From Pseudoalteromonas marina (lineage in GTDB: Bacteria; Pseudomonadota; Gammaproteobacteria; Enterobacterales; Alteromonadaceae): a stretch of DNA of 64,000 bases. Position numbers and translations under genes: made by a program. Below the pieces are notes generated by a model. The model did not search any database and was not told the DNA's origin. It saw only the letters and a list, made by a program, of their open reading frames with translations. The stretch spans positions 1,178,001-1,242,000 of the forward strand of contig NZ_AHCB03000005.1 of the NCBI RefSeq assembly GCF_000238335.3, in the 5' to 3' direction. The number at the start of each line of letters is the position of its first letter. Position 1 is the stretch's first letter. Positions 16,863 through 43,724 of the stretch are shown one piece after another.

Positions 16863-16896
16863 TTGCAAAATGCAAACTTGTCAGTTGCAAACTGCA
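16863..16896 (+). promoter_or_regulatory. Two SypG-enhancer-like palindromes upstream of the LruC operon
   Basis: TTGCA-AAA-TGCAA at 16863-16875 and TTGCA-AAC-TGCAT at 16885-16897 have starts 22 bases apart, about two helical turns. They lie 54-87 bases upstream of a sigma-54 promoter. The same element recurs before other units of the polysaccharide locus. Confidence 0.6.
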
Positions 16897-16949
16897 TTAG
16901 GATTATACTGAATTTATTTTATTTATAATGAATTCATAGAGTTAAGTTT

Positions 16950-16965
16950 TGGAATAGACCCTGCA
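16950..16965 (+). promoter_or_regulatory. Sigma-54 promoter of the LruC operon
   Basis: TGGAATAGACCCTGCA has GG and GC at -24/-12 with ten bases between. The expected start is near 16977, followed by the ribosome binding region and the ATG at 17001. The gap 16744-17000 holds this promoter and the two palindromes and no gene. Confidence 0.7.
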
Positions 16966-17000
16966 ACAGTTTAATTACTTAACTTTTTAAGGGCTAAATT

Positions 17001-19196
17001 ATGAAACTAAATAAACTTGCAACAGCATGCTTAGTTATATTTCCATGCGCTGTGCTCAGTCAACCATTCGAGTCGTGCCCCAGCCAGGCATTTTTAATGC
17101 AAGATGCTAACGCGCAACTATACGGAATAGATTTAGTTTCAGCTAAACCTACCGTTTTAGCATCGCAGCTAACGTTCGCTAACGAATTAAATACTAACAG
17201 CGTTAATGCAGTTGGTTTTAATTATAAAGATCAATACATGTACGGTTACAGTAAGCAAACGCCTGGTAGCGTAGTGCAGCTTGGCAGCAACTACGAAATG
17301 AAGCGGCTAAACGTACAAGGTTTACCTGCCACTAATTTTTACGTCGGTGATATACAAGTTGTAGGTGAGGGCAATGACCAACGAGCTACCTATTATGTTT
17401 ATCATCCTAACTTTGGCCTATATGGTATTAATTTAGATGGTGACTTAGATGCATCTATTACGGCAAGTTTGTTAACCAATACAAACACTTGGAAATTATC
17501 TATTTATGACTTTGCCTTTCACCCAACTAGTAACCTTTTATATGCGGTTGAGCCAAATGGCAATTTATACGAAATAGATATTGCAGCAAATACCCATACG
17601 TTAATTACTCAAGTTGATGTAGGCGATGATACTGGCGCATTTGGCGCGGCTTATTTTGATGTGAAGGGCCAGTTTTATTTTAGTAACAATAAAAGCGGTA
17701 AAATCCATAAAGTTGATTTAAGTGTTAGCCCAGTCGTTGGCTACACCCCGGTGGCAAATGTGTTTACATCGGGGCCTAAATCAAGTCAAAACGACGGTGC
17801 GCGCTGTGCCATTGCCGAAGTAAAAGTAACTGATAGCTCAATTGATTTTGGTGACGCGCCAGCGCCTTACAACACAAGCCTTGAGCAAAGTGGCGCAAGG
17901 CATTTATTTGACCCTAATAGTACCGGCTCAGATTTAATTTATTTGGGAAGCTCGGTGGGTGGTGAAAACATTAATACCAATGCCGATTTACTATTGTCTC
18001 CTATTGACGATTCAGACGATGGCGTAAGTTTTGTAACGGCGATTTCGGCAGGGCAAGACTCGCAAATTATTGTTAACGCGTCTACTTCTGGCTTTTTATA
18101 TGCGTGGTTTGATTGGGACCAAAATGGCCGTTTTACTGAAGACGAAAGAACAGTAACTAAACGTGCCATAAATGAAGGCGATAACAGCATCTTAATCACG
18201 GTGCCAAGTAACACTAAAGCGGGCCAAACATGGGCTCGATTCAGAGTCACCGATGGCACAGAGGCGTCGCTGATCACGGCAACAGGCGGTGTGCTGGGCG
18301 GCGAAGTAGAAGATTACGAAATTACCACTTATGCAAGCGCTGTTTACCCTGGCGAAAATGATTGGGTAACCCTTGCATTTGAGGATAGATGGCCGTTTGC
18401 AGGTGATTACGATTTTAATGATCTAGTACTCAATTACAGAACCACACAGCTTATGGAAGGGAGTAATGTGGTTGGCTATAAAATTGATGGTCAACTAATT
18501 GGTATTGGAGCCACATACCATAATGGCTTTGCTGTGAGATTAAAAGAAACCGTCAATAATACCACTCACACTATTTTACGAGATGAAGTAGATGAAGATG
18601 CAATTAGCTTTATTATTGACGGGCAACCGCAAACAGTGAGTCCTTTGGAGGCAGGTAGAAACGAAGCTATCCTCATTTTCATGCAAGATACTTGGGCCCA
18701 CGTTTCAAAAGAGTCGGGCTGTAGTTACTTTAGAACAGAAGATAATTGCGATGAAAACGTTAAAGTTACCTTTAGCATGAGTATTCCTTTAAAAGAACCA
18801 AAAGCGAAAAGTGCATCTCCCGGTACGCTACTTGACCCGTTTATTTTTGCAACTAATGGCTTTTACCACGGTGATTTTTTAGTCGGTAAAAACGCCCGAG
18901 GATGGGAAGTACACATTAAAAACCAGGCACCAACTGAAGCATTTGATACATCACTCTACAGCGTTACAAACGCAGATGATGCCAGCGTACAAAGTAATGG
19001 TTTGTATTTTCTTAACGAAAACGGTTTACCGTGGGCAATGGAGGTCGGTATGCAATGGCTGCATCCCCTTGAAGGGGTAGATATAACCGACGCTTACGGT
19101 AGTTTTGCTGACTTTGCTCAATCATCGGGTAAACAAAAGCCAACGTGGTTTTACGATTACAGTATTAGTAATGTTGTTGTAAGAGGGGAACAGTAA
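17001..19196 (+). CDS. Secreted LruC-domain protein with GEVED domain
   Basis: The 731-residue protein starts with a signal peptide (cleavage near AVLSQ, residue 20). An N-terminal repeat region (about 30-260) resembles a beta-propeller-like surface domain with SIYDFAFHPTSNLLYAV. A GEVED-type domain follows (DFGDAPAPYNT ... GEVEDYEI, about 283-446). The C-terminal LruC domain (about 450-730) is marked by LAFEDRWPFAGDYDFNDLVLNYR-like residues, with acidic positions that may bind calcium. Such proteins are exported and often associated with surfaces or matrix. It is first of a three-gene operon with a sigma-54 promoter shared in type with the polysaccharide locus, so a matrix role is inferred. 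Confidence 0.8.
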   Translation: MKLNKLATACLVIFPCAVLSQPFESCPSQAFLMQDANAQLYGIDLVSAKPTVLASQLTFANELNTNSVNAVGFNYKDQYMYGYSKQTPGSVVQLGSNYEMKRLNVQGLPATNFYVGDIQVVGEGNDQRATYYVYHPNFGLYGINLDGDLDASITASLLTNTNTWKLSIYDFAFHPTSNLLYAVEPNGNLYEIDIAANTHTLITQVDVGDDTGAFGAAYFDVKGQFYFSNNKSGKIHKVDLSVSPVVGYTPVANVFTSGPKSSQNDGARCAIAEVKVTDSSIDFGDAPAPYNTSLEQSGARHLFDPNSTGSDLIYLGSSVGGENINTNADLLLSPIDDSDDGVSFVTAISAGQDSQIIVNASTSGFLYAWFDWDQNGRFTEDERTVTKRAINEGDNSILITVPSNTKAGQTWARFRVTDGTEASLITATGGVLGGEVEDYEITTYASAVYPGENDWVTLAFEDRWPFAGDYDFNDLVLNYRTTQLMEGSNVVGYKIDGQLIGIGATYHNGFAVRLKETVNNTTHTILRDEVDEDAISFIIDGQPQTVSPLEAGRNEAILIFMQDTWAHVSKESGCSYFRTEDNCDENVKVTFSMSIPLKEPKAKSASPGTLLDPFIFATNGFYHGDFLVGKNARGWEVHIKNQAPTEAFDTSLYSVTNADDASVQSNGLYFLNENGLPWAMEVGMQWLHPLEGVDITDAYGSFADFAQSSGKQKPTWFYDYSISNVVVRGEQ

Positions 19197-19651
19197 TGAA
19201 AAAAGCACTATTAATTTTATCACTATCAATAGGGTTAACAGCATGTGGCGGCGGTGGTTCAGAAGAGACAAAAGCACCAGCAGTCGCGACGGTATCTTCT
19301 ACCTCTACTCCAGCAAATAATCCAACAGGGATTAACGCAATCACAGTTGATAACGAATTTAATTTATCTACTAAGTATTCACTTGATGTTGATGTTGACC
19401 TAGGGATGGGCGATGTAAGAGCCTACTTAAATGTGTGCCAAAAAAAGGTGGCATCTCAACGAGCAGATTATAACAACTGTATTTACAGAGGGCCTCTTAG
19501 TAATACCGCTCTCGATACGCAATTAGTGTTAAGCAATCAAGATATTGAACTGATTGCTGAAATTTGGTTTTACGATGAGTCGACCGAACCGCTTTTATTC
19601 ACTTGGCAGTACGAACCTGCTCAAGCACAACAACAGTTTGTTATCAGATAA
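19196..19651 (+). CDS. Hypothetical lipoprotein
   Basis: The 151-residue protein has a lipoprotein signal with lipobox LTAC (lipidated Cys17) followed by GGGG and a Ser/Thr/Pro-rich linker to about residue 45. The remainder is a small beta-rich domain (STKYSLDVDVDLGMGDVRAYLNVCQKK) with two cysteines that could pair. The start overlaps the LruC gene stop by one base (TAATG). I recognise no family; a membrane-anchored partner of the LruC protein is a reasonable guess. Confidence 0.7.
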   Translation: MKKALLILSLSIGLTACGGGGSEETKAPAVATVSSTSTPANNPTGINAITVDNEFNLSTKYSLDVDVDLGMGDVRAYLNVCQKKVASQRADYNNCIYRGPLSNTALDTQLVLSNQDIELIAEIWFYDESTEPLLFTWQYEPAQAQQQFVIR

Positions 19652-19682: not shown

Positions 19683-20630
19683 ATGTCAAATATCCCAGAA
19701 AGTAATAATCCGCACTATTTAGTTTTGCGGATTATTTTTATATGTGCAGCAGTCGTATTTATCTTACTCGCGTTTAATCCCTTAACTAGCTTTTATGCCG
19801 ATGTATTTTCATCTTTACGAATACAGATGTTAATTGCGGCGTTGATGTGCGGGGGCGCACTTATGTTGTTAAAACTGTACAAATTATCTGCAGTGGTGTT
19901 CCTACTTTGCGCGCTGGGGCTAGGCCCTATTTTGGTGTCTTTTCCTGTAACATCGCCTGTTAATTCAGAGGCTTTATCAATCAAGCAAATTAATGTTAAT
20001 TATAGTAATAAATACCTTTCAACACATTTACTGAGTTTGCTTGATGAAAGTTGGGATGTGCTTATTTTACAAGAGTTTAGTGACAAAAATCGCCACCTGT
20101 TAACTCAATTTATAACCACTACCGACATGTTTGGCTATGAGGAGGTTGAAGGAATACCCTATGGTATGGTTGTTTTATCGCGAATACCTATGGTTTATAA
20201 GCAACAAGTTAAATTAGATGGCGATAAGTTAGGGTATTTAAAACTAAAGTTTATGGTGGGTAATAAGCTGTTGACCACGTTTATTGCGCACCCACCTTCA
20301 CCGCGCTCTAAACGTCATTGGCAAAATAGAAATACGCTATTAGCGGCTTTAAAGCTTTCAACACAAAATGAAAAGGGCGCATGGCTCGTTGCAGGGGATT
20401 TAAATGTAGTACCTTGGTCTTCATATTTTGAGTGGCAGCAAGATCAAACTTGCTTTGGGCAACATCGATACTCAAGCTTTATGCCTTTTAAAAAAGGACA
20501 CTCTATTTTGACTGGCTTACCTATTGATCACTGTGTAATTAGCGAACAAGTTTTATTACAAAGCCTAGTGGTCACGGACTTTAAAGGCAGTGATCACAAA
20601 ATGTTAAGCTATAAAATAAGTCTAAAATAA
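19683..20630 (+). CDS. Membrane-anchored endonuclease/exonuclease/phosphatase family protein
   Basis: The 315-residue protein has three N-terminal membrane helices (about 13-35, 42-60, 65-92) and then an EEP-fold domain. Motifs seen are LILQEF (metal-binding Glu), the HPPSPRS region with catalytic His, AGDLNVVPWSS and the C-terminal GSDHKML, so the active site looks complete and probably faces the periplasm. Substrates in this fold range from DNA to phospholipids and sugar phosphates and cannot be chosen here. It is the last gene of the LruC operon, before a strong terminator. Confidence 0.75.
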   Translation: MSNIPESNNPHYLVLRIIFICAAVVFILLAFNPLTSFYADVFSSLRIQMLIAALMCGGALMLLKLYKLSAVVFLLCALGLGPILVSFPVTSPVNSEALSIKQINVNYSNKYLSTHLLSLLDESWDVLILQEFSDKNRHLLTQFITTTDMFGYEEVEGIPYGMVVLSRIPMVYKQQVKLDGDKLGYLKLKFMVGNKLLTTFIAHPPSPRSKRHWQNRNTLLAALKLSTQNEKGAWLVAGDLNVVPWSSYFEWQQDQTCFGQHRYSSFMPFKKGHSILTGLPIDHCVISEQVLLQSLVVTDFKGSDHKMLSYKISLK

Positions 20631-20688: not shown

Positions 20689-21603
20689 TTATTTAATAGA
20701 CTGTTTTATGTCATGTACTAAGTGTTGAAGATTTCGCCTATGGGGAAACAATAAGAATGCAGCAGTGGCTAAGCAAAAAGCTTTAAACTTATAACCTATT
20801 TCTCGGTAGTATTCGCTATAACATTCGAGCATTCTGGCTTTGGCTTTAAACCTAGAAACCACGCCAATATCGTTTTTACAGCGATCTATTATTATTTGCA
20901 TCGCAGTTAAACGGTTTTGTCTGTTGGCAGTAATAGAGCCTGCTCTCATTAAATAGCCCATTGATACCTGATTCGAAAAAGCCACATTACCAATACGTGC
21001 TAATTTAAGCCAACAATCCCAATCGCTTGCGCTATTGAGTGATTGATCAAACTTACCTACATAACAAATGGCTGATTTTTTCACCACAACAGACGAGGTA
21101 CCTATAACGTTTGCAAACAGCAGTAAATCCATTGGTGATTTAAGGTTTTGGTAACCCTCAGTGTTCCAATTAATAAATTTTGTAAACTCAGGCCAATAGG
21201 AAAAACAATCAATAATGGGTTCGTACTGCTCATTAACATGCATGTAATTGGTAAAGCTCAGCACACAATCACGATTATTTTGCATGTAGGTAACCTGGTT
21301 AAATAATTTATCTTCAGTCCAGTAATCGTCAGCATCTAAAAAAGCAATATAGTCGCCTTTGGCAAGTTCAATGGCTTTATTTCTGACACTAACAACCCCG
21401 CAGTTTTGCTGCTTTATAACACGCATATTAGGAAGTGATTGTTGTAACTTATTTAACCATTCAACGCTTCCATCAGTTGACCCATCATCAATAATAAGTA
21501 TTTCACACTCAATATTATGCTGCCTAACAACGCTTGAAATAGCCTTTGCCAAATACTGCTTACAGTTAAAGTTAGGAATAATAACGCTTACCTGAATACT
21601 CAT
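20689..21603 (-). CDS. Family 2 glycosyltransferase
   Basis: A GT-A fold glycosyltransferase of 304 residues has the N-terminal VSVIIPNFNCKQYLAKAI motif, DDGSTDGSVEWL and the metal-binding DADD (FLDADDYWTED). It has no membrane helix and probably adds one sugar to the lipid-linked polysaccharide unit in the cytoplasm. A GTG at 21612 lies inside the AAAGGTGAG ribosome binding site, so ATG 21603 is preferred. It diverges from the main glycosyltransferase operon and has its own sigma-54 promoter, which places it in the same regulon. It could fill the SypI slot missing from the main operon. Confidence 0.88.
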   Translation of the reverse strand: MSIQVSVIIPNFNCKQYLAKAISSVVRQHNIECEILIIDDGSTDGSVEWLNKLQQSLPNMRVIKQQNCGVVSVRNKAIELAKGDYIAFLDADDYWTEDKLFNQVTYMQNNRDCVLSFTNYMHVNEQYEPIIDCFSYWPEFTKFINWNTEGYQNLKSPMDLLLFANVIGTSSVVVKKSAICYVGKFDQSLNSASDWDCWLKLARIGNVAFSNQVSMGYLMRAGSITANRQNRLTAMQIIIDRCKNDIGVVSRFKAKARMLECYSEYYREIGYKFKAFCLATAAFLLFPHRRNLQHLVHDIKQSIK

Positions 21604-21640
21604 AGTACTCACCTTTTGTGTTTTTCATTAACGTTAACTA

Positions 21641-21697: not shown

Positions 21698-21729
21698 TTG
21701 CAAATTGCGATAAGCCTTCGCAAATTGAC
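21698..21729. promoter_or_regulatory. Two SypG-enhancer-like sites between divergent sigma-54 promoters
   Basis: TTGCA-AAT-TGCGA (21698-21710) and TCGCA-AAT-TGACT (21718-21730) lie 20 bases apart between the divergent promoters at 21641-21656 and 21761-21776. Shared control of both directions is plausible. Confidence 0.5.
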
Positions 21730-21760: not shown

Positions 21761-21776
21761 GGGCACAGATTTTGCG
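21761..21776 (+). promoter_or_regulatory. Sigma-54 promoter of the sypJ-N-like operon
   Basis: GGGCACAGATTTTGCG matches GGCAC and TTGC of the -24/-12 consensus with ten bases between GG and GC. The start would be near 21788, with AGGAG ahead of the ATG at 21810. Confidence 0.72.
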
Positions 21777-21809: not shown

Positions 21810-22961
21810 ATGAAACATATTGGTATCGTTGTACCTAGCTTTCACATACCTTCAGAAACGTTTGTTGTAACTGAAATTAACGCGCTGGTGAATGCAGGGC
21901 ATAGAGTGACCGTACTGACGTTTGAAAATTTAAATTACTGTGTTCATTTAAATAAAAATGTGCAGGTGATTGTTATTAAAAAATCAACACCATCGGCAGT
22001 TAACACACTACTCAAAAGCCCACTAATGGCAGTAAAAGGCGGTGTTATTGCAAGTCGCTTTAAGTCTATTTCGGTCATGTCTTTAATGGGCTACGGGTTA
22101 AATATTGCTGAAATCATTCGTGCAAAAAAAATCTCTCATATCCATTGTCATTTTATGCATGCACCACTGGCTTACTCCATTATCGCTAGCAAAATAGCCG
22201 GCGTGAGTGTGTCATCTATTGGCCACGGTCACGATGTTTATGTGAATGATGATGATTTAAAGCTTAAATTATCGTTGTGCGACTTTTCAGTTGCGGTATG
22301 TAAAGACATGGCTGTAAAACTCAGTAAATACAGCGCAGGAAAAATACAGCTACTGCATTGTGGTATTGATTTGAGCTTGTTTAATAATAAACCAAATCGA
22401 TTAACAGAATCGGTTAACCTTATTTTTGTTGGTCGGTTAATTGAAAAAAAGGGGTTGCAATTTTTACTTCCGGCAATCAAAAAAATTAGCAAAAAACATT
22501 CAATCACACTAGATATAGTAGGCGATGGCCCTTTACTAAATGACCTAAAATATTTTTGCGAACAGCTAGGCATTACGAATGAGGTCAACTTTTTAGGTTC
22601 AAAAAGTCCACAGTGGTTAGCAATAAACACCAGCAATTATTCGGCTTTAATTGCGCCGTTTTGCGTGTCTAAAAATGGCGATCGCGACACGGGGCCGGTT
22701 GTACTTAAAGAAGCCATGGCCAGCGGTATACCTGTTTTAACTACTGAGCTAATGGGTGCAAAAGAAATTGTAAATGACGATGTTGGCGCTAAATGTGCGC
22801 CCTCAAGTATTACTGGTATTGAGCAAATGCTTAATGACTTTTGTGCACTAACGCCTTACCAGCGCTACGAAAAAGGGCTAAATGCAAAAAGGTTAGCGAC
22901 AAAACGCTTTAATGCAAATTCGCAAGCCAAAAAGTTATCTCACTGGGTTCAAGGGATATAG
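21810..22961 (+). CDS. Family 4 glycosyltransferase (SypJ-like)
   Basis: The 383-residue GT-B enzyme has the C-terminal GT4 signature: LIFVGRLIEKKGLQFLL, VGDGPLLNDL and a donor-binding E-x7-E (GPVVLKEAMASGIPVLTTE). The N-terminal half has the expected GHGHDVYVNDDD acceptor loop. It is cytoplasmic and would transfer a sugar from a nucleotide donor onto the growing lipid-linked unit. It opens a run of five closely spaced genes (to 27574), the first after the sigma-54 promoter. In the V. fischeri syp locus, SypJ holds the equivalent place before SypK; donor and linkage are unknown. Confidence 0.88.
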   Translation: MKHIGIVVPSFHIPSETFVVTEINALVNAGHRVTVLTFENLNYCVHLNKNVQVIVIKKSTPSAVNTLLKSPLMAVKGGVIASRFKSISVMSLMGYGLNIAEIIRAKKISHIHCHFMHAPLAYSIIASKIAGVSVSSIGHGHDVYVNDDDLKLKLSLCDFSVAVCKDMAVKLSKYSAGKIQLLHCGIDLSLFNNKPNRLTESVNLIFVGRLIEKKGLQFLLPAIKKISKKHSITLDIVGDGPLLNDLKYFCEQLGITNEVNFLGSKSPQWLAINTSNYSALIAPFCVSKNGDRDTGPVVLKEAMASGIPVLTTELMGAKEIVNDDVGAKCAPSSITGIEQMLNDFCALTPYQRYEKGLNAKRLATKRFNANSQAKKLSHWVQGI

Positions 22962-22969: not shown

Positions 22970-24382
22970 ATGAATGGGATTAAGCAAATTGCATACTTTG
23001 GTATTTCCACTTTATTTCTTAAAGTATTAGGGTTTGCTTTATTACCTATAACTACGCGTATTTTAAGTCAGGCAGAATTTGGTGAGCTAAATTTTTTGGT
23101 GTCTATTTCGGCAGTTATGTCGTTGTTATTGTGTTTAGGTTTACCCGATTTATTGTTTAAGCAACAAATGAACAACCCACAACATAAACGTGTATTATTC
23201 AGAGATGCATTACTAGTGTGTGCCATTGTTAGTAGTGTATTTGTGTGCTTGGTTTTTTACTGTATTGATTATTTAAGCGCGTTATTACCTGTAACGCTAA
23301 ATGCACTAGATATTAAACTGTTAGCTATTAACTTAGCGCTTTCATCTCTACTTTCTATTTTATTTTGTTATTTTAGATATTACGAAATGGCAAAACAATT
23401 TTGTATTTTGGCTGTGCTTCAAGGTATGGGGCAAACACTTCTAACCATTGTTTTACTATACTTAGGCCATGGTGTTACTGGGGTAATGGCATCGGGTGTG
23501 GTGTCGAGCGCTTTAGTGTTATGCATTGCTCTAGTTTTGGTATTGAAGCCGCTGGGTATCAGTTTTAAACGTGTTTCATGGAAAATAAGTTATAAAAACG
23601 GACTTTTTTTAATCAGTATTGTTACCTCGTCTTTATTTGTGTATGCAAATAATGGGGCCGAAAATTGGTTTATAGTTGCCAGTGAGGGCAAAGAAAAACT
23701 GGCTCAATATTATGTCGCTTTACAGTTTGCCGTTATGACCTCGTTCGCTTTTGAACCTATTAGAATGTGGTGGTTCTCACGTCGTTTTGATGAATTGGCT
23801 AAAAACCGAGAACGTTATGTCGAGCTGTGTACGCTGTGTTTAGATTCGGCCATTTTACTGTGCGCGTTAATGCTTATCATCACCCCGTCTATTTTTAGTT
23901 TAGTGTTACCACAAAATTATCAGTTGCATACTTGGTTGCTACCAAGCCTTATTTTTATTGTGGTTATTAAGCACCATAGTGATTTACTCAATATAGGGTG
24001 TTACATCCATTACAATGGTGCATTTGTTACTGTGGTAAATGCAATTAGCGCATTTGCTGTGCTGGCTTTGTTAGCCGTTTTAGTTCCTCGATATAACGTA
24101 TATGGCGTAGTGGTTGCACTTTGCATTGCGCAGTTAATTAAAACCAGTTTACTTATTGTTATTAGCCAACAATTAGAAAGTTTAACGTTTAGTATTACGC
24201 GTTTGCTGCCCAGCTGGGTGTGTTTTTCTTTAATATACTTTTTAAGCATTACACAAACTGCCTATTTTGAGCTTATTCAATGCATTGTTTTTATCTGCTT
24301 TTTAATTGCTTTGTTTTATAAATACAAACACGCAATTTTAGCACTTACCCAGCAAACAATGCGGGGTAAAGTGTATGATTAG
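22970..24382 (+). CDS. Polysaccharide flippase, Wzx-like (SypK-like)
   Basis: The 470-residue protein is almost entirely hydrophobic with about 12-14 membrane helices and begins GIKQIAYFGISTLFLKVLGFALLPITTRILSQAEFGELNF, the usual opening of oligosaccharide flippases of the MOP superfamily. It should move the lipid-linked repeat unit across the inner membrane. It starts 8 bases after the glycosyltransferase and overlaps the next gene by 8 bases. The position matches SypK in the V. fischeri locus. Confidence 0.88.
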   Translation: MNGIKQIAYFGISTLFLKVLGFALLPITTRILSQAEFGELNFLVSISAVMSLLLCLGLPDLLFKQQMNNPQHKRVLFRDALLVCAIVSSVFVCLVFYCIDYLSALLPVTLNALDIKLLAINLALSSLLSILFCYFRYYEMAKQFCILAVLQGMGQTLLTIVLLYLGHGVTGVMASGVVSSALVLCIALVLVLKPLGISFKRVSWKISYKNGLFLISIVTSSLFVYANNGAENWFIVASEGKEKLAQYYVALQFAVMTSFAFEPIRMWWFSRRFDELAKNRERYVELCTLCLDSAILLCALMLIITPSIFSLVLPQNYQLHTWLLPSLIFIVVIKHHSDLLNIGCYIHYNGAFVTVVNAISAFAVLALLAVLVPRYNVYGVVVALCIAQLIKTSLLIVISQQLESLTFSITRLLPSWVCFSLIYFLSITQTAYFELIQCIVFICFLIALFYKYKHAILALTQQTMRGKVYD

Positions 24383-25727: not shown

Positions 25728-25731
25728 AACT

Positions 25732-27691: not shown

Positions 27692-27707
27692 TGGCGCACC
27701 CTGTGCA
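27692..27707 (+). promoter_or_regulatory. Candidate sigma-54 promoter of the sypO-R-like operon
   Basis: TGGCGCACCCTGTGCA has GG and GC spaced by ten bases, with TGC at -12. It lies 99 bases before the ATG at 27806. Confidence 0.55.
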
Positions 27708-35628: not shown

Positions 35629-36329
35629 AATTAATACCAAGTCAATATCATGAGTTAGAAGTGATATGTAATACCATGATTGATAACGATGCGCGATGCG
35701 TTACATTTATATCTTTATGTGGGGCTGAGGGGGCATCTACCGCATGTGTGAGCGTTGCAAAACGCTTACAAAGCCAAAATAAGTCGGTGCTTATCATTGA
35801 TTTAAACCCAATTAATACATTTAACCCAGATGATAAGTTACCCGACACGTGCAGCCCGTGGCGCTTTGATGATATTTCGTGCCAGTTAGGTGTTACCAAT
35901 TACCAAGAAGTAAATTTGCTCACTATTAAGCATTTAGCAGCTATTGAGCCTGCTAAAAACAAGCATGTGTTAAATGACGCGATAGCTCGCTTAAAACAAG
36001 AGTATGACTATATTTTAATAGATATGTCGCCGGCATTAAAACTAAACAGAAACAATGTACCGCTTCATTCACTAAGTTTGTGTAGTGAATTAACCTTTGT
36101 AGCCGTGGCACTTGGTGTAAATGACGAGGAGTCATTATGTAAAGGTATAAAAGAGCTAAAGCAAGCCGGTCATAGCAATATTAAATTACTAATAAGCCAA
36201 CATAACTTTGCTCCACTGGGGGAGCGTATTATTAGTGTTTTAAATAAGCATAAAAACAAATGGCCTAAATTATGTAACAACCTTAAGTCGAAAATTAATA
36301 AACAAAGGTGGTTGTTCGAACACCATTGA
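35625..36329 (+). CDS. CpsD/CapB-like ATPase with degenerate P-loop (SypD-like)
   Basis: The 234-residue protein has the BY-kinase/MinD-like fold: a P-loop region SLCGAEGASTACVSVAKRL, the Walker A' strand VLIIDLNP and YDYILIDMSPALKL. The lysine of the P-loop (GKS/T) is replaced: the residues read EGAST. There is no tyrosine-rich C-terminal tail (the end is NKQRWLFEHH). It may be a catalytically weak or inactive co-polymerase partner of the Wzz-like protein. It is cytoplasmic, and sits exactly where sypD stands in V. fischeri. Confidence 0.8.
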   Translation: MKLIPSQYHELEVICNTMIDNDARCVTFISLCGAEGASTACVSVAKRLQSQNKSVLIIDLNPINTFNPDDKLPDTCSPWRFDDISCQLGVTNYQEVNLLTIKHLAAIEPAKNKHVLNDAIARLKQEYDYILIDMSPALKLNRNNVPLHSLSLCSELTFVAVALGVNDEESLCKGIKELKQAGHSNIKLLISQHNFAPLGERIISVLNKHKNKWPKLCNNLKSKINKQRWLFEHH

Positions 36330-36336: not shown

Positions 36337-37797
36337 ATGGATATTTTATTTGAAAGACGTTTTGAATTGCTTTGGCCAACGCTTAGCGAGATCAGATTGG
36401 TTCTTAAGCATGTTTTAAGAGCACTTAACGTAAAAAAAGATGAAGTAGATGCTGCGGGTTTAGTTGCAACTGAATATTTAACTAATTTGATAAGGCACAA
36501 CGAGGGATCAGAACAGCATATTTTTTTGCGCATAAGCCAAGCGCATAACGATGGTTATACACTCACATTTATTGATGAGCTTACGCCTTACAATTTATTT
36601 GAAAAAAATAACTCTCAGTGGAAACTAGGCTCAGGTAATTTGGTTGAAGGTGGTATGGGAGTTGAACTGATTCGCCACTACTTCAAAGAGGCCGAGTACG
36701 TATCAGATAAAGGTAAAAACTATTTTACTTTCCCACTAGAGCACATAGATAAACGACCCACAGTTATATACGTTGACGATGATGTTACCCAGCTCGCACT
36801 TATGAGCGCCTATTTAAAAGATCACTTTCAAGTTGTTCCTTGCGAAAGTATTGAAGCCGGCTGGCAAGCAATTTTAACTGCCGATGCACGAATATTGCTG
36901 CTGGACCACAAGCTAAAAAACGGAACGTGTGAGCCACTTTTAGAAAAGCTCAATCAGTCGAATTTAAAGTCACAGTTATCGGTTGTTATGCTAACAGGTG
37001 ACGATAGCGAAGAAGTAATAAGTAAAATTAATCGGTTAGGTGTAGATGACTATTTAATTAAGCCAGTTAAAAAAAATAAACTGCTGCAGAGCATTGAACG
37101 AGTAACACACCGTTTTGCTTACTTATCGTATCAAACAACTTTTGAATCTACACCGTCTAAAATTCATTTACAAAATGATAAAAGCGCGCATCTTTTTGGG
37201 TCTATTAGCTTGGGAAACGGTGGTGACTTTTTTATGCCCATTAATGATGAGTGCAGTGCATTTGTGCTTGGCGATATGATGGGGCATGGCTTGCAAGCGC
37301 TTAAAGAAAGTTTTGCGATTAAAGGGTTTATAAGTGGTTTTTTGGCCACCGGTTTGCCTTATCAAAATATGTTAGCGGCGCTTAATAACGCTTTGTATAA
37401 GCAGCAACTTTGTAAGTCTAGTTTAGTCACGCTTGTTATTTGTTTTATTGAGAACAATAAACTATTTTGGTTAAATGCCGGGCACCCGCCGCCAGTTGTA
37501 ATACTCAATAATGGCAAAGTACACCAATTAACAGGCACAGGACCACTGTTGGGCCTGTCAAAAGAGCATAACTACACACTATACGAAGCAGGGCTTGACG
37601 ATGTTGAACATATTTTGTTGTACACCGATGGCTGGACTGAAAATCGTTTCACCGATAAAGATGAGATAGGTGAACTAACTAAAATTATTCCTCAAGATTG
37701 CAAAACGTCTGAAGAGTTTGCACATTGCTTGTGGAAAAACTCACAAGTTACCCTTTCTAAAGAAATTGACGACGCATCATTAATTATAATTAACTGA
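36337..37797 (+). CDS. Serine kinase - receiver - PP2C phosphatase regulator (SypE-like)
   Basis: The 486-residue protein has three domains. First is an RsbW-type HATPase (about 1-135; N-box EYLTNLIRH, G-box VEGGMGVELI). Second is a response-regulator receiver (about 144-265; VDDD at 146-149, phospho-Asp190, LIKPVKK). Third is a SpoIIE/PP2C phosphatase (about 285-486; GNGGDFFMPI, GDMMGHGLQALK, LNAGHPPPVV, YTDGWTENR). This exact order is that of V. fischeri SypE, which phosphorylates and dephosphorylates SypA according to its receiver state. It closes the sypA-E-like operon. Confidence 0.88.
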   Translation: MDILFERRFELLWPTLSEIRLVLKHVLRALNVKKDEVDAAGLVATEYLTNLIRHNEGSEQHIFLRISQAHNDGYTLTFIDELTPYNLFEKNNSQWKLGSGNLVEGGMGVELIRHYFKEAEYVSDKGKNYFTFPLEHIDKRPTVIYVDDDVTQLALMSAYLKDHFQVVPCESIEAGWQAILTADARILLLDHKLKNGTCEPLLEKLNQSNLKSQLSVVMLTGDDSEEVISKINRLGVDDYLIKPVKKNKLLQSIERVTHRFAYLSYQTTFESTPSKIHLQNDKSAHLFGSISLGNGGDFFMPINDECSAFVLGDMMGHGLQALKESFAIKGFISGFLATGLPYQNMLAALNNALYKQQLCKSSLVTLVICFIENNKLFWLNAGHPPPVVILNNGKVHQLTGTGPLLGLSKEHNYTLYEAGLDDVEHILLYTDGWTENRFTDKDEIGELTKIIPQDCKTSEEFAHCLWKNSQVTLSKEIDDASLIIIN

Positions 37798-37886: not shown

Positions 37887-39290
37887 ATGCCACCTACAGT
37901 TCTAATCGTTGAAGATACGCAGTCTTTAGCAATGATGTACCAATCCTACTTATTACCAACGGGTGTTAATACACTTGTGGCAAGTGATGGCCAAACGGCC
38001 ATGGATATAATTAATAAGGTTCCCCCCGATTTAATTGTACTTGATGTTATGCTGCCAGATATGAATGGACTTGATATTTTAGCGACATTAGAACCCGATA
38101 ACTCGCCTCAAGTGGTTGTATTAACTGGTCATGCAACAAAAGAAATGGCTATTCAGGCAATAAAACTAGGCGCGAGCGACTTTTTAGAAAAGCCAATAGA
38201 AGCAGACCGCTTTAGAATAACGGTTAACAACGCGCTTAAAATTAAAAACTTAAAGCAAACCGTTACTCAATACAAAAACAAATACGAAAACGGAAAGTAC
38301 TTTGATTTGATTGGCAGCTCAAAGCAAATGCAGTCTGTTTATCAAATTATAAGTTCGGCGTCTGCCAGTAAGGCCACTGTTTTTATAACAGGTGAAAGTG
38401 GCACGGGTAAAGAGTTGTGCGCACGAGCTGTTCATCAAGCGTCTAATAGAGCGAATAAGCCTTTTGTAGCCTTAAATTGTGCAGCAATACCAAAGGATTT
38501 AATTGAAAGTGAAATTTTTGGGCATTTAAAAGGGGCGTTTACTGGCGCCATTGCTAATAGAGTAGGTGCTGCAGGGCAGGCTAACGGCGGGACGCTGTTT
38601 TTAGATGAATTGTGTGAGATGGACATTAATTTGCAAAGTAAACTTCTGCGATTTATTCAAACAGGGAGCTACCAGCAAGTGGGTAGTGAAAAAGAAGTAA
38701 AAGTTGATGTTAGATTTGTTTGTGCAACTAATAAAGACCCGCTTATTGAAGTTGAAAACGGCCGTTTTAGAGAAGATTTATATTACCGACTCCATGTTAT
38801 TCCTATCGAGCTGCCACCTCTAAGAGCGCGCGGAACAGATATTATTGAAATTGCCGAAGCCTTATTTGTAAAATTAGCGTTAGAAGAAAATCATCCTTAT
38901 AAAAGTATTTCAGAAGGCGTAAAACAGTTGCTTATGCAGTACAGTTGGCCAGGCAATGTAAGGCAGCTCGAAAATGTGATCCGTAATGTATTGGTACTTC
39001 ATCCTGAACAATATATTGATACCGATATGATCCCCGCATTACCGGTCAGTACAAAAACGCAGGCGCAACACACGCCAATTATTACTGAGCAGCCAGTAAG
39101 TACTGAAACACCCGCCTTTGATATGGCAACATCACAAAGCGAAGTTAAACCCCTATGGCTTGCAGAAAAAGAATACATTGAGCACGTTATAAAAATATGC
39201 GTGTCGAATGTGCCTAAGGCTGCATCACTGCTCGATGTCAGCCCTTCTACACTTTACAGAAAAATTAAAAGCTGGGAAGAGCTCGAGTAA
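37887..39290 (+). CDS. Sigma-54-dependent response regulator (SypG-like)
   Basis: The 467-residue regulator has a receiver (phospho-Asp53 in LIVLDVMLPDMNG), an AAA+ domain with Walker A GESGTGKE and the sigma-54-contacting GAFTGA loop, and a Fis-type helix-turn-helix at the end (VPKAASLLDVSPSTLYRKIKSWEELE). In V. fischeri, SypG activates the syp promoters with sigma-54. Here five sigma-54 promoter candidates lie in the same locus, so this protein is their likely activator. The 89-base gap before it shows no clear promoter, and it may be read from the upstream operon. Confidence 0.9.
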   Translation: MPPTVLIVEDTQSLAMMYQSYLLPTGVNTLVASDGQTAMDIINKVPPDLIVLDVMLPDMNGLDILATLEPDNSPQVVVLTGHATKEMAIQAIKLGASDFLEKPIEADRFRITVNNALKIKNLKQTVTQYKNKYENGKYFDLIGSSKQMQSVYQIISSASASKATVFITGESGTGKELCARAVHQASNRANKPFVALNCAAIPKDLIESEIFGHLKGAFTGAIANRVGAAGQANGGTLFLDELCEMDINLQSKLLRFIQTGSYQQVGSEKEVKVDVRFVCATNKDPLIEVENGRFREDLYYRLHVIPIELPPLRARGTDIIEIAEALFVKLALEENHPYKSISEGVKQLLMQYSWPGNVRQLENVIRNVLVLHPEQYIDTDMIPALPVSTKTQAQHTPIITEQPVSTETPAFDMATSQSEVKPLWLAEKEYIEHVIKICVSNVPKAASLLDVSPSTLYRKIKSWEELE

Positions 39291-39292: not shown

Positions 39293-40309
39293 TTATGTAC
39301 CTGTGTAAGCTTTTTGCAAGAGCAAAAATTGTTGTTTTCCCGAAAATCGCTCCTCAAGGATGTTATACGCGTTATTGATAATTCTTTTAGTCTGTTCTTC
39401 AGGAAGTAAAAGCAGCTTTTCGACCTGATATTGGCAGTGCTGTGCATTAGCTTCTAACATTAAAAAACCTGTTTCATCGTGTTTGATAATGCTAGGAATG
39501 GCACCAACAGCACTGCTAATTATAAACTTTTGCTCAGAAATAGCCTCAAGCAATGCCATGGGAAGTCCTTCTTCCCTAGAGCAAATGAGCAACACATCAA
39601 TTTTGCTCCATATATCATTACGTTCAACAAGGCCATGATACTGAAGATTGCGTAAGTTCGGTACCTCACCTTTTAATGGTCCATCTCCAAAAATATGAAA
39701 CTTAATGTCTAAATCTTGCTGCATGTTTTCAGCTAATCTACAAAATATATCCGGTCCTTTTTCAAAAGATAGTCGCCCCACAAAACCAATATTTAAGGTT
39801 TTATTATCACACCGATTAAAGTGACTGTTAGAAGAGTTTATTGCGATGAAGTTTTCGAGCAAAGTGGCGTTTCTTAATGATGCTTTTATTTGCTCTGATA
39901 CGGCAAAATTGGTCGATAATGGAGAAAGTAATTTATCTAGCTTATTGTAAATTTTTAACTTACCGGTACCCGCTTCGCCAGCATGATAGGTACTAATACA
40001 GCGATGCTTTGTTACTTTACATGCTAAACGGCCAAATATTCCTGCTTTGTAGCCGTGGGTGTGAACAACCGTTTTTGAGTCAAACGTTTTTAACTTTTTA
40101 AGTAAGCTGCTTAAGTTTCCTTTTAAAAATTCATACCTTATATTTTCTTTATTAAGCAGAGCATAAAATGCTTGATTTTTATGATCCTCATAAAACATAA
40201 TGTTATTGCTAATGCGGTTTTGAGTAAGAAGCTTTGAAAGTTCAACGAGGTGTGTTTCTATACCACCGAGCATCGAAGAGTCGACAAATAAAACAACGTT
40301 GTAATCCAT
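39293..40309 (-). CDS. Family 4 glycosyltransferase (SypH-like)
   Basis: The 338-residue GT-B enzyme begins VVLFVDSSMLGGIETHLVELSKLL and has the GT4 donor site (IGFVGRLSFEKGPDIFCRL, IFGDGPLKGEV, REEGLPMALLEAISEQKFIISSAVG). A TTG at 40321 also opens the frame, but ATG 40309 is preferred. It is convergent with the sypG-like gene, ending 2 bases from it, and diverges from the Hpt gene. In V. fischeri sypH follows sypG on the same strand; here the gene is inverted. Confidence 0.85.
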   Translation of the reverse strand: MDYNVVLFVDSSMLGGIETHLVELSKLLTQNRISNNIMFYEDHKNQAFYALLNKENIRYEFLKGNLSSLLKKLKTFDSKTVVHTHGYKAGIFGRLACKVTKHRCISTYHAGEAGTGKLKIYNKLDKLLSPLSTNFAVSEQIKASLRNATLLENFIAINSSNSHFNRCDNKTLNIGFVGRLSFEKGPDIFCRLAENMQQDLDIKFHIFGDGPLKGEVPNLRNLQYHGLVERNDIWSKIDVLLICSREEGLPMALLEAISEQKFIISSAVGAIPSIIKHDETGFLMLEANAQHCQYQVEKLLLLPEEQTKRIINNAYNILEERFSGKQQFLLLQKAYTGT

Positions 40310-40330
40310 AACTGACCCCAAAAGATATAT

Positions 40331-40663
40331 ATGATTAATTACTCAACAATTGAACAGCTCAAAAGTGATGTAGGCAACGAGTTAGCAGTAGAGCTGCTAA
40401 AAACGTTTATAAACGAATCTAAAAAAACAATTGATATTTTGATCAATACACAAAACCTCAGTGAAATTGAAATTAGTGCGCATAGTCTTAAAAGCAGCGC
40501 GTACAGTTTTGGCGCTTCGGGTCTTGGAGACACGTGTAATTCAATCGAGTCCATTGTAAAAATTGAGCATAGCGCTGAGGAGCTCAACAGTTTGTTAAAA
40601 ATAGCTGATGAGCAAAGCGCAGAGACGTTTAAACAGCTAGAATCCATTATCCAAAATATTTAA
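40331..40663 (+). CDS. Stand-alone histidine phosphotransfer (Hpt) protein
   Basis: The 110-residue helical protein is an Hpt domain with phospho-His51 in AHSLKSSAYSFGASGLGDTC. It can carry a phosphoryl group from the receiver of the hybrid kinase (41703-43724), which has no Hpt of its own, to the receivers of the SypG- and SypE-like proteins. In V. fischeri the equivalent Hpt is a domain of SypF. The ATG follows the divergent glycosyltransferase start by about 20 bases. Its stop overlaps the end of the convergent YvcK-like gene by 4 bases. Confidence 0.88.
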   Translation: MINYSTIEQLKSDVGNELAVELLKTFINESKKTIDILINTQNLSEIEISAHSLKSSAYSFGASGLGDTCNSIESIVKIEHSAEELNSLLKIADEQSAETFKQLESIIQNI

Positions 40664-41532
40664 AAATGATTACTCAATTGAATGGGCATTTTTAGTAATC
40701 CAGAAAACACATTGTTTAGCTCATCTATGTCATGCAAATGAGCCCTGTTCTTAATGATGTTTTTGCTGCCCTGTAATATTTCTTCAATTGCAGAAGGCGG
40801 AATGCTCAAGTCGTACAACTTAAATCCTAGTTGCTCTGCAAGCCAATCCACACCAGCGGTTTGGGTGTTTTTCATTACGCTTTTTTCTTCTTTTGAGTTT
40901 TCAATAAAAATACGACACGCCGATGTTTTTTGAATAGCTGCCGCTATATCATTAACTAAAAATGCGGGTAAAATACTTGTGATAATGCTGCCTGGGCCAA
41001 TAATAATTAAGTCGGCTTCTAAAATGGCGTTTACACAGCCCGGACCTGCAGGAACATTTTTTGATAGTGATACACTTTTAGGTAAAGAAGTCAGTGAATC
41101 AATTTCACATTCGCCCATTACTTTTTCATTGTTATTCAATTCAGCAACAAGGTCAGTGGGTACTTCTGTCATGGGTAAAACGGTTTCTGTATTGCCAAGC
41201 ATAATATTAAAATGCGCAATGGCTTTGGTTGCAGATCCGGTCAGCTCCATTAAACCAAGTAGTGTTAAATTACCTAAACAATGATCAGCAAGTTGCCCTT
41301 GTGTAAATCTATGTTCGTAAATTGCGTTGAACGTAGATTTTTTACCTGCAAGCTGCAAGCAGCAACGGCGTATATCTCCAAGCGCAATGGTTTCTTGTGA
41401 AGCTCTAATTTTACCTGTGCTACCACCATTGTCAGTGGTTGCGACAATAGCGGTTATATTACTACTCATTGGCTTAATTGCGCTTAAAACCTGAGCTAAT
41501 CCGTGTCCGCCACCAATACACACTATTTTCAT
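40660..41532 (-). CDS. YvcK/CofD-like protein
   Basis: The 290-residue protein has the YvcK/CofD Rossmann-like fold: IGGGHGLAQVLSAIK at the start, TTDNGGSTGKIR, GDIRRC and IIIGPGSIITSILP. YvcK relatives bind UDP-sugars such as UDP-GlcNAc and influence cell-envelope growth and carbon use. That would suit a polysaccharide locus, but a housekeeping gene is as likely. It stands on the opposite strand between the Hpt and hybrid kinase genes. Confidence 0.82.
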   Translation of the reverse strand: MKIVCIGGGHGLAQVLSAIKPMSSNITAIVATTDNGGSTGKIRASQETIALGDIRRCCLQLAGKKSTFNAIYEHRFTQGQLADHCLGNLTLLGLMELTGSATKAIAHFNIMLGNTETVLPMTEVPTDLVAELNNNEKVMGECEIDSLTSLPKSVSLSKNVPAGPGCVNAILEADLIIIGPGSIITSILPAFLVNDIAAAIQKTSACRIFIENSKEEKSVMKNTQTAGVDWLAEQLGFKLYDLSIPPSAIEEILQGSKNIIKNRAHLHDIDELNNVFSGLLKMPIQLSNHF

Positions 41533-41702
41533 TTTTGAGCCTTTGTATTTTTATTTATTTCACATGTAAGCTGCATTTATTATTCCAAAAGTTTTATAAC
41601 AATTAACATGATGATTTATATTGTTTTTTAATCTATATTTAATTGAGCAAGGCCCGTTTAAAATTTCTCTTTTGCAAAACGCGATGCATATTGATGAGGA
41701 AA

Positions 41703-43724
41703 ATGAGTGTGAATAAAACAGAACATCTGTGTGTATCTGAATTACAAAAACATTTAATAGATTTAGCTAATTGTGAGTACGGCGCTGATTTGTTGAATCT
41801 GTTGAGATCGGTATTTGAGTCAAGGCTTAAATATACTGACTGTATAATCATCAATAGTTACAAATATAGGTATTACGAGACAATAGCGACCACGAATGAC
41901 CAGTTTAGTGACAAAATGTGGTCTGAGTGTTCTTTGTTTACACAAACAGCTGAGCACGGTTATGTTATATGCCAATACCCTCAACAAATTGAAGAGCTCG
42001 AGTTTTCGATTTTATATTCAATTCAAACATTAAAACTAAAAAATTCTTTATTGTTTAGTGTGAACACACAATTTGATAAAGGCATATTTATTTTTACAAA
42101 TGTAGATGCACAGCAGTGCGAACAACTTGTTAATTCAGACACAATAAAAATATTGTTGCAGCAGGCGTTTTTTACGTTAATAAGTCAAATTAAGTTAGCT
42201 AAACAAACGGACAAAGCTTTATCGCTTATACATAAATTTACGACACTCTCTAGCCTATTTAAAGAGTATGGGTCAGAGTGGTTTTGGCGATTAAACCCGC
42301 TAATGGTATTTGAAAGTATTAATAATATTGAAACTATAGGGAATGTGTACGATCAGCTTTTTATTGGTCATAAAATTGAACACATCATTACAGATAATGA
42401 AAAGCAAAATACAGAAAAATGGCAGCAATTTAACCAGCTAATTGATGACCGTGACGATTTTCATAATTTTGAATTTGAGATTGAAGCCGATAAAAATTTT
42501 TGGGTCATATTAAGCGGTAAACCTCTTTATAATAAGTTAGGACACTTTTTGGGTTACATGGGGCTTGCAAAAAATATTACTACTTCTAAACAGCGCGAGT
42601 TTGAACTTCAGGCACAAACCTTAAAGGCAGAAGAAGCAAGCCAAACAAAATCTAAATTTTTGAGTGTGATGTCTCATGAAATTAGAACACCTATTCATGC
42701 CGTTATGGGTATGATTGAGTTACTACTTGATACAGAGCTTAGCCCCGAGCAACAGCAACTTGTTAATTATGCTAACTCTAGCACTGAGATCTTATATGGT
42801 CTAATAACTGATGTGCTCGATTTTTCAAAAATCGAATCAGGCACGGTTTCATGTCTAAAAAAACCATTTGATATAAAGCTACTAACTGAAAATATAGTAG
42901 GGCAGTTTAATATTATTGAAAAGTCAGATGATATTCTTTTTACAACGCACATCGATGAAAGCATCCCACAATACGTTGTTGGAGATCAGTACCGATTAGG
43001 ACAAGTATTATTTAACATAATGAGTAACGCGTTTAAGTACACAACACATGGTCAAATAAATTTAAATGTAGTTTTACAAAATGAGCAGCTCGTTATTGAA
43101 GTGAAAGACTCGGGTATTGGTATAGCTAAAAAGCATTTAGATTTAATTTTTAAGCCATTTAGCCAAGTGAATGACAGCATAAACCGCAAAAGTGAAGGGG
43201 TTGGTTTAGGGTTAAGTATTTCAAAAAATTTATTGGGCATAATGGGAGGAGACATAACAGTAGATACCCAGCTTGGCTTAGGTAGTACGTTTACTATTTC
43301 TATTCCATTTGAAGAGGCCCACACAAGCGATATTGTTGATAATGTAATTTATACACAATCGGCACTGGCTATTTTAGTCGCTGAGGATAACAAAACAAAT
43401 CAAGTCCTTATTAAGGCGTATTTAGAAAAGCTAAATCATAAAGTTACGCTTGCTAATCATGGGCGTGAAGCGATTGACTTATTTTCGCGTAAAAAGTTTG
43501 ATTTAGTATTAATGGATATCATGATGCCTGAAATGGATGGTTTAACAGCAGCAGAATATATAAGAGATGAATTAGTCAGCGATGTACCAATTTACGCATT
43601 AACCGCTAATGCAGAAAAAGATAATAAAGCATCCTGTTTTAAGGTGGGAATGAATAAGGTGCTTACTAAACCAATTAAATTTCAAGAACTCGAAGCTGCT
43701 TTAAAAGGGGTATTTCCACGTTGA
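41703..43724 (+). CDS. Cytoplasmic hybrid sensor histidine kinase (SypF-like)
   Basis: The 674-residue protein has an N-terminal region of unknown type (about 1-190), a PAS domain (about 195-310), a HisKA domain with phospho-His in FLSVMSHEIRTPIHAVMG, an HATPase domain (VGDQYRLGQVLFNIMSNAFKYT, GLGLSISKNLL) and a C-terminal receiver (VAEDNKTNQ, LVLMDIMMPEMDG). No membrane helix is seen, so it should sense a cytoplasmic signal or a partner kinase. The start is uncertain: ATG 41703 and ATG 41694 are both possible, and the frame reaches a TTG at 41643. The receiver probably passes phosphate to the separate Hpt protein. Confidence 0.87.
   Translation: MSVNKTEHLCVSELQKHLIDLANCEYGADLLNLLRSVFESRLKYTDCIIINSYKYRYYETIATTNDQFSDKMWSECSLFTQTAEHGYVICQYPQQIEELEFSILYSIQTLKLKNSLLFSVNTQFDKGIFIFTNVDAQQCEQLVNSDTIKILLQQAFFTLISQIKLAKQTDKALSLIHKFTTLSSLFKEYGSEWFWRLNPLMVFESINNIETIGNVYDQLFIGHKIEHIITDNEKQNTEKWQQFNQLIDDRDDFHNFEFEIEADKNFWVILSGKPLYNKLGHFLGYMGLAKNITTSKQREFELQAQTLKAEEASQTKSKFLSVMSHEIRTPIHAVMGMIELLLDTELSPEQQQLVNYANSSTEILYGLITDVLDFSKIESGTVSCLKKPFDIKLLTENIVGQFNIIEKSDDILFTTHIDESIPQYVVGDQYRLGQVLFNIMSNAFKYTTHGQINLNVVLQNEQLVIEVKDSGIGIAKKHLDLIFKPFSQVNDSINRKSEGVGLGLSISKNLLGIMGGDITVDTQLGLGSTFTISIPFEEAHTSDIVDNVIYTQSALAILVAEDNKTNQVLIKAYLEKLNHKVTLANHGREAIDLFSRKKFDLVLMDIMMPEMDGLTAAEYIRDELVSDVPIYALTANAEKDNKASCFKVGMNKVLTKPIKFQELEAALKGVFPR

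Follow-up and report, generated by a model that had tools for sequence, protein, structure and literature searches.

The window analyzed here (the whole 64,000-nucleotide stretch of Pseudoalteromonas marina, contig NZ_AHCB03000005.1, positions 1,178,001 to 1,242,000) carries between 16863 and 43724 a cluster of polysaccharide genes together with a sigma-54 response regulator, a hybrid kinase and a separate histidine phosphotransfer (Hpt) protein. The kind of locus is already known, while its control wiring is new. The original prediction had read the region as a syp-like symbiosis-polysaccharide locus outside Vibrio, with the same content as the V. fischeri locus, which produces a sticky coat that this squid symbiont requires. 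Assignment with Pfam bore out the genes and domains placed there, namely STAS, OmpA, SLBB export, AAA/BcsQ-like, HATPase_c_2-REC-SpoIIE (PP2C), sigma-54 response regulator, hybrid kinase, Wzx, Wzy, hexapeptide transferase, GNVR chain-length protein, GT4 glycosyltransferases and a GT2 plus Bac_transf fusion; the HATPase-receiver-PP2C architecture proposed for SypE was among those confirmed. In BLASTP comparison with the entire syp locus of Aliivibrio fischeri emors.2.1 (L129 and L130), 15 of the 18 Syp proteins (A, B, C, D, E, G, H, K, L, M, N, O, P, Q and R) had counterparts in the window, with 25-54% identity. The claim of identical content held to this extent; no counterpart of SypJ was found in the window by BLASTP, SypF is represented by a VpsS-like kinase and a separate Hpt protein, and the supposed SypG is a sister of LuxO. 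Likewise, of the predicted series SypJ to SypR only K to R were recovered, with Q and R fused.

The polymer genes (forward strand unless stated; identities are to A. fischeri) start with a GT4 glycosyltransferase that matches SypI weakly (21810..22961; 22%, 1.6e-6), followed by the SypK-like Wzx flippase (22970..24382; 25% over 419 aa, 8e-44), the SypL-like Wzy polymerase (24375..25727; 46%), the SypM-like hexapeptide transferase (25708..26439; 42%), the SypN-like glycosyltransferase (26441..27574; 37%), the SypO-like chain-length protein with GNVR domain (27806..29299; 33% over 467 aa), the SypP-like glycosyltransferase (29283..30377; 37%) and a SypQ-SypR fusion of 618 aa that joins a GT2 to an initiating sugar transferase (30337..32193; Q 32%, R 54%). 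The SypA-like STAS protein, which keeps the phospho-serine motif DSSGI (32362..32670; 34% over 86 aa), precedes the SypB-like OmpA protein (32689..33543; 34%), the SypC-like SLBB export protein (33547..35628; 48% over 696 aa), the SypD-like AAA/BcsQ-type protein (35625..36329; 25%, 5e-9), the SypE-like HATPase-REC-PP2C protein (36337..37797; 26% over 447 aa, 8e-32), the sigma-54 regulator and, on the reverse strand, the SypH-like glycosyltransferase (39293..40321; 37%). The order is permuted relative to V. fischeri (gt-K-L-M-N-O-P-QR-A-B-C-D-E-G-H(-)) and near-constant in the genus: among 36 Pseudoalteromonas loci compared, window included (1,238,295 bp in total), K-L-M-N-O-P-QR-A-B-C-D-E-G was complete in 29, which is beyond chance. 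Gaps in the labelled series mark the other seven loci, of which five lack a single label, one runs into a contig or region edge and one is decayed. Enhancer sites and gene orders of these 36 loci are not independent because the genomes are related.

Orthologues of SypC, SypO and SypR lie in one cluster (48%, 33% and 54% to A. fischeri; the equivalence of the queries ScvC/L/O of PMC8941931 to SypC/O/R is our own mapping), and a SypE of the HATPase-REC-PP2C build accompanies a SypA with a phosphorylatable serine. A SypF hybrid kinase with C-terminal Hpt was not found, as the window kinase ends in REC and the Hpt is separate; according to the part of PMC8941931 consulted, some accepted scv loci also lack SypF. 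Judged by its proteins, the cluster is a genuine syp-type exopolysaccharide locus, and it may serve host or surface attachment or biofilm formation. Syp-like 'scv' loci were published in 2022 for 148 species of 28 genera, Pseudoalteromonas included, with the SypQ-SypR (scvN-scvO) fusion reported for this genus (PMC8941931, consulted in part). The occurrence of such a locus outside Vibrio is therefore supported, and we rejected the claim that it is the first. The consulted part of that paper contains no discussion of the activator's kinship to LuxO, a separate Hpt, cofD, the enhancers or the LruC pair described below. A LuxO-type activator inside a syp locus did not appear in the titles and abstracts of the literature searched, which left most subscription journals outside coverage; the consulted part of PMC6275029 names LuxO in Pseudoalteromonas by family match, with 'syp' absent from its main text.

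SypE at E<=1e-40 was present in 34 of 108 Pseudoalteromonas genomes (own included), and across the class SypE at E<=1e-15 in 4 of 369 genomes (own included), the same four having SypC at E<=1e-60. For comparison outside the genus we used 80 named loci, the best of 280 against non-Pseudoalteromonas SypC, taken with 10-kb flanks beyond which genes are hidden; counts over them are not frequencies because the best 80 of 280 were chosen. The nearest relatives of the window Syp proteins are syp proteins of Motilimonas, Aeromonas, Hahella and others, and not unrelated capsule clusters. The outcome that the original prediction had named as refuting it, SypE- and SypA-like proteins not being closest to Vibrio Syp proteins, did to the letter occur: among the sampled non-Pseudoalteromonas proteins A. 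fischeri, counted twice in these relative ranks, stood 29th of 75 for SypA, 25th of 56 for SypE and 63rd of 83 for SypC; we accordingly rejected the description of the window proteins as nearest to Vibrio.

The sigma-54 response regulator (37887..39290, forward strand), taken for SypG in the original prediction, was identified as a LuxO sister by scores, trees and PDB match. Against the A. fischeri genome it gave 531 bits to LuxO and 444 bits to SypG (47% to SypG). The gene matched at 531 bits adjoins luxU, is confirmed as luxO by an NCBIfam score over the cut-off (828 bits), and luxO-luxU converges on cofD (L205). The best PDB match was LuxO 5ep0 (5.5e-145) and the best non-LuxO match reached 5.5e-92, in a list that contains no SypG entry. 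In a hand-thinned tree of 73 rows (of 80 locus rows, only 14 of Pseudoalteromonas were kept and 16 named ones dropped), 17 Pseudoalteromonas rows were sister to six Vibrionaceae LuxO, not within them, with support 97/91. The grouping of Pseudoalteromonas with LuxO recurred at 96/97 in a 61-row tree (without the seven outgroups and another five rows that were long, alphaproteobacterial or duplicates) and at 99/97 in a 58-row tree of REC and AAA columns only (three more long rows removed). Non-Vibrionaceae SypG joined Vibrionaceae SypG in a clade that excludes the Pseudoalteromonas rows (23 rows, 96/93). Forcing the Pseudoalteromonas regulators with SypG cost 12-24 log units, with approximately unbiased (AU) p values of 0.039 (26 SypG rows), 0.011 (23 rows, after the same removals as for the 61-row tree) and 0.013 (20 rows, REC and AAA columns), which are optimistic because a first tree had already been seen when any of the AU groups was defined. 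On this placement, outside the SypG clade, the window activator is closer to LuxO than to SypG and is a sister of LuxO, and the circuits of the syp activator and of the Vibrio quorum-sensing switch likely share a root. A recent duplication giving LuxO and Vibrionaceae SypG was rejected (p 0.003).

Next to the activator region lie a free-standing Hpt protein of 110 aa, LuxU-like in size and layout (40331..40663, forward strand), which the original prediction had overlooked, and, convergent with it, a CofD/YvcK-family protein (40660..41532, reverse strand; TIGR01826 241 bits, cut-off 196) of a UDP-GlcNAc-binding family by model name. CofD/YvcK is often regarded as a housekeeping gene, and this one is the only CofD-family match in the window's genome. 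Of 36 Pseudoalteromonas loci, 29 have the Hpt gene convergent with cofD (24 overlapping, 5 with gaps of 3-61 bp), the arrangement that luxU shows in all six Vibrionaceae LuxO loci examined. Moreover, CofD (E<=1e-30) was present in 36 of 37 genomes of the genus with a strong regulator match versus 3 of 71 others, as read from lists compared by eye; therefore CofD travels with the LuxO-like regulator in Pseudoalteromonas. The best PDB match of the Hpt was LuxU 1y6d (4e-5), and LuxU was its only NCBIfam match at E<=1e-5. In a close relative (L292, G064:C43:30000-49999) the locus is decayed: LruC, Wzy, a glycosyltransferase and CofD survive only as short pieces, but the kinase, the Hpt and the regulator (93%) are whole, which looks as if the polymer genes had been lost before the relay.

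The kinase (41643..43724, forward strand) was assigned by Pfam, BLAST and trees as a VpsS-like hybrid kinase of HisKA-HATPase-REC build; a domain search found neither an Hpt domain nor HAMP, and the missing Hpt domain had escaped the original prediction. Its best A. fischeri match was a kinase of 694 aa whose gene follows one for a FIST-domain protein (331 bits, with 33% identity across residues 38-684), while SypF matched only the core (241 bits). The Pseudoalteromonas kinases grouped with the FIST-linked kinase at 98/94 in a tree of 58 rows and at 96/96 after 15 rows, several of them long, were removed to leave 43. Maximum hydrophobicity was 1.19 for the window kinase versus 2.53 for SypF. 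The part of PMC4398556 consulted describes VpsS as a kinase that is cytoplasmic, has a FIST gene upstream of its own and feeds LuxO through LuxU, and the A. fischeri FIST-linked kinase of 694 aa is presumably VpsS. The window kinase groups with this kinase, is cytoplasmic and has no Hpt. A FIST-domain (VpsV) gene was not beside it, its neighbors being cofD and ThuA; this holds for the adjacent genes only, as the genome was not searched for FIST. A VpsS-like kinase alone does not prove quorum sensing.

According to the part of PMC10162802 consulted, the pattern for LuxO is TTGCAWWWTGCAA and that for SypG TTCTCANNNTGMDWN. Pattern scans of the window found two exact TTGCANNNTGCAA sites (TTGCA-N3-TGCAA), before the LruC gene (16863..16875) and before sypA (32201..32213), and further LuxO-type sites with one mismatch upstream of LruC (16885-16897), between the divergent glycosyltransferase genes (21698..21710) and before sypO (27776-27788). 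Scans for sigma-54 -24/-12-like elements gave forward-strand candidates before LruC (16950..16965, 4 mismatches to the consensus), before the GT4 gene (GGGCACAGATTTTGCG, 21761..21776) and upstream of sypO (27692..27707), the last lying upstream of the LuxO-type site of that gene; an element similar to the one of LruC was seen in 8 of the 9 other loci compared for that gene. At sypA no sigma-54 element was found in two consensus scans, and an alignment consensus was used in its place: a second, imperfect LuxO-type site follows about 30 bp on and then a TGGCA...TTGT element, and the two sites followed by this element are conserved features of the Pseudoalteromonas sypA upstream region. The V. 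fischeri SypG pattern had no exact match in window 13001-50000. As a control, in 40 kb of A. fischeri it occurred exactly only just upstream of sypA, sypI, sypM (overlapping the end of sypL) and sypP. In A. fischeri the LuxO pattern was twice exact beside Qrr.

The enhancers are concentrated at operon starts. The 36 Pseudoalteromonas loci contain 100 exact LuxO-type sites; among 60 palindromes made of the same letters, the runner-up reaches 17. Counted within 350 bp before genes, exact sites preceded sypA in 27/35, the glycosyltransferase operon in 20/34, LruC in 10/18, sypO in 11/35 and the kinase in 6/34 loci (34/35, 24/34, 16/18, 31/35 and 14/34 with at most one mismatch), and internal genes in 0/493. 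Symmetrical SypG-type sites with at most two mismatches were found before sypA in 0/35, and a few stood before other genes. Among the named loci, seven without a recognized sypA being excluded, LuxO-type sites stood before sypA in 12/50 (exact) and 23/50 (at most one mismatch) outside the Vibrionaceae versus 0/23 and 1/23 within, and SypG-type (TTCTCA) sites in 17/23 Vibrionaceae and 0/50 others at two mismatches or fewer (6/23 Vibrionaceae at one or fewer). This split is a trend only, because slightly more than half of the loci outside the Vibrionaceae have neither type. Since the LuxO-type site is kept even with SypG-clade regulators, it seems to be the earlier enhancer of syp, and TTCTCA seems to be a Vibrionaceae change. 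Neither type was exact before sypA in syp-type loci of Hahella, Pseudomonadales, Elstera and Beijerinckiaceae (L098, L099, L094, L101, L106, L120). Photobacterium galatheae (L054) has syp genes and two exact LuxO-type sites in the locus, and in its genome neither SypG nor LuxO was matched at E<=1e-95.

We think it fairly probable that this syp-type cluster with a LuxO-sister activator is switched on directly by a relay from the VpsS-like kinase through the Hpt to the LuxO-like activator at LuxO-type enhancers. In such a design the cytoplasmic kinase would sense a signal and pass phosphate via its REC domain to the separate Hpt, from which both the activator and SypE would receive it. Once phosphorylated, the activator would turn on the LruC pair, the GT-Wzx-Wzy operon, sypO-QR and sypA-G from their sigma-54 promoters, and a Qrr small RNA would not be required. 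SypE and SypA would gate polymer output post-transcriptionally as in V. fischeri, where SypE controls SypA (PMC10120452, consulted in part). SypC, SypO and SypB would export the polymer, and the LruC protein and lipoprotein would serve as coat or matrix proteins.

A number of observations weigh against this proposal. The regulator scored 637.9 bits with the NCBIfam LuxO equivalog and did not reach the cut-off of 800 (A. fischeri SypG, 604), and we therefore call it a LuxO sister and not LuxO. The Hpt had only 41.7 bits with the LuxU model, below the cut-off of 140, which the genuine A. fischeri LuxU also misses (100.6 bits); its tree placed the Pseudoalteromonas Hpts on the SypF side (96/81), with little cost for joining them to LuxU instead (AU 0.158), and 4 of 26 SypF tails likewise have motifs near the LuxU-like HxLKSSxxS[FY]GA. 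A grouping of the kinase with SypF was not rejected (AU 0.159 and 0.183). The two exact enhancers of the window (expected 0.34) were matched by 5 of 100 shuffles, and the whole genome has six, equal to the backward control (6 and 6), so that only their placement speaks for them. With one mismatch allowed, 15 of the 493 internal genes are also preceded by a site, and the sypA promoter has GT at the position where the -12 GC is usual. LuxO-type syp sites also accompany SypG-clade regulators in Psychromonas, Agarivorans and Motilimonas, and the sites alone therefore do not identify LuxO.

A different history, which we regard as rather unlikely, would be that an incoming syp cluster, its own regulators lost, joined an ancestral luxO-luxU-cofD group, LuxO taking over syp enhancers that were already LuxO-like. 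In favor of it, the luxU-cofD layout is shared with Vibrio, one Pseudoalteromonas (G012, L294) has hpt-cofD but no syp, another (G040, L296) has hpt-cofD together with H and F some 33 kb away from sypE, and other families have LuxO-type syp enhancers. However, CofD follows the LuxO-like regulator throughout the genus in the 36/37 versus 3/71 comparison above, and cofD also lies beside sypA in Colwellia loci and in Shewanella corallii. Slightly less probable again, and in our view unlikely, is that the syp locus is an ordinary one whose SypG has diverged and whose SypF has come apart into kinase and Hpt; the likeness to LuxO would then reflect slow-evolving ancestral residues kept here and changed in Vibrionaceae SypG. 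The position of the regulator inside a syp locus, the leaning of the Hpt to SypF, the kinase-SypF grouping left standing by the AU tests and the LuxO-type enhancers of SypG-clade loci agree with it, but non-Vibrionaceae SypG cluster with Vibrionaceae SypG and leave Pseudoalteromonas outside, the AU tests disfavor the SypG grouping, the convergence of hpt and cofD matches that of luxU and cofD, and the kinase matches the FIST-linked kinase over nearly its full length. That the relay acts mainly through a small RNA, with the syp enhancers secondary, is very unlikely: Vibrio LuxO does work through Qrr (PMC10162802, consulted in part) and novel small RNAs are invisible to Rfam, but Rfam gave no match in the window at gathering scores, Qrr was absent at the four exact enhancers that the genome has besides those of the window (the scan being limited to the window and these sites), all four lie inside mechanically predicted open reading frames, one near a frame start, and the A. 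fischeri control Qrr was detected at 107 bits.

The left part of the locus holds an LruC-domain/GEVED/DUF6923 protein with a signal-like N-terminus (17001..19196, forward strand; TIGR04456 above cut-off, Pfam), a syp companion predicted to be a matrix or surface protein, and its partner 'lip', a small predicted lipoprotein (19196..19651, forward strand) recognized by homologue pairing and fold prediction. In A. fischeri the gene that diverges from sypA encodes a homologue of the former (39% identity over 738 aa), the homologue paired with it there matches the latter at 34% over 59 aa, and among sampled non-Pseudoalteromonas proteins the nearest relatives of the LruC companion are from Aliivibrio. 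LruC of at least 670 aa is present in 15/36 Pseudoalteromonas loci, where it stands either ahead of eep or within the polymer operon, preceding sypO, and LruC matches of at least 330 aa in 16/80 named loci, including Aliivibrio, Colwellia, Ferrimonas and Alginatibacterium, the last three of which also have the paired lipoprotein. In its AlphaFold2 model the lipoprotein is a beta-sandwich with a predicted local distance difference test score (pLDDT) of about 90 or more over residues 61-151, and no PDB match of this fold fell below E 0.04; the prediction for the LruC protein was too weak for use (pLDDT 63), with one weak PDB sequence match, 3oqq. Searches combining LruC and syp found no literature linking them. 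The idea that the unlabelled genes upstream of eep in other loci are hidden LruC pairs found no support, the open reading frames of four loci looking unlike LruC by eye. A different exopolysaccharide-like Pseudoalteromonas locus (L284-L287) pairs an LruC-domain protein with a LuxO/SypG-family activator (41-45%).

Between the LruC pair and the polymer genes are a conserved neighbor of the endonuclease/exonuclease/phosphatase family (eep; 19683..20630, forward strand) and a divergent GT2 glycosyltransferase (20689..21612, reverse strand), both assigned by Pfam and locus comparison. In many Pseudoalteromonas loci, not in the window, the divergent GT2 is separated from eep, or from the left genes, by a single-domain response regulator of about 138 aa (L192:745-1161). 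Window 10791-16135, immediately upstream of the locus, has nitrite reductase-type genes and a NIT-ANTAR regulator.

Further, we tentatively suggest that LuxU-LuxO descends from a dedicated syp regulator, that outside the Vibrionaceae activators of the LuxO/SypG family still drive syp through TTGCA-N3-TGCAA, and that Vibrionaceae with both LuxO and SypG shifted syp to TTCTCA-N3-TGAGAA, thereby insulating the polysaccharide from quorum sensing; this is possible, though we would not call it probable. Two open V. fischeri questions become testable. In the part of PMC12369376 consulted, LuxU can drive SypG-dependent biofilm in V. fischeri and the link is named an area for future research; a LuxU-sized Hpt and a LuxO-like activator inside a syp locus look as if LuxU-syp cross-talk were the original wiring. 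The enhancer contrast before sypA, LuxO-type outside the Vibrionaceae and TTCTCA-type within, offers a sequence answer to one of the open questions. In addition, the LruC/lipoprotein pair beside sypA gives the model squid symbiont two more candidates for genes of a matrix or coat.

Among known systems, other Pseudoalteromonas luxU-luxO operons (L281-L283, L288 and L289) resemble the window in having an Hpt and a LuxO-family regulator with hybrid kinases, but their regulators form a clade of their own (100/100) and are unlinked to syp in the stretches examined. The second-class regulator matches in the genus number 35, nine of which were taken with genomic context, and one genome (G068) has both the syp-linked and the separate luxU-luxO regulator types. 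The Vibrionaceae LuxU-LuxO relay with VpsS input (PMC4398556, consulted in part) shares the kinase-Hpt-sigma-54 regulator design, a regulator to which that of the window is sister, an Hpt gene convergent with cofD and the same enhancer sequence; the window differs in having the enhancers directly at exopolysaccharide genes, with no Qrr found where searched, and in the lack of a FIST (VpsV) gene adjacent to the kinase. The scv loci of V. parahaemolyticus and other genera, as given in the consulted part of PMC8941931, belong to the same cluster family and in Pseudoalteromonas have the same Q-R fusion. With the A. fischeri syp locus the window shares 15 of 18 proteins, the SypE/SypA pair, the Wzx/Wzy-type genes, a sigma-54 activator inside the locus and an LruC and lipoprotein pair nearby (beside sypA in A. 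fischeri), and it differs in its permuted order, the Q-R fusion, the absence of SypJ, a VpsS-like kinase and separate Hpt in place of SypF, a LuxO-sister activator, and enhancers of the LuxO type instead of the TTCTCA type.

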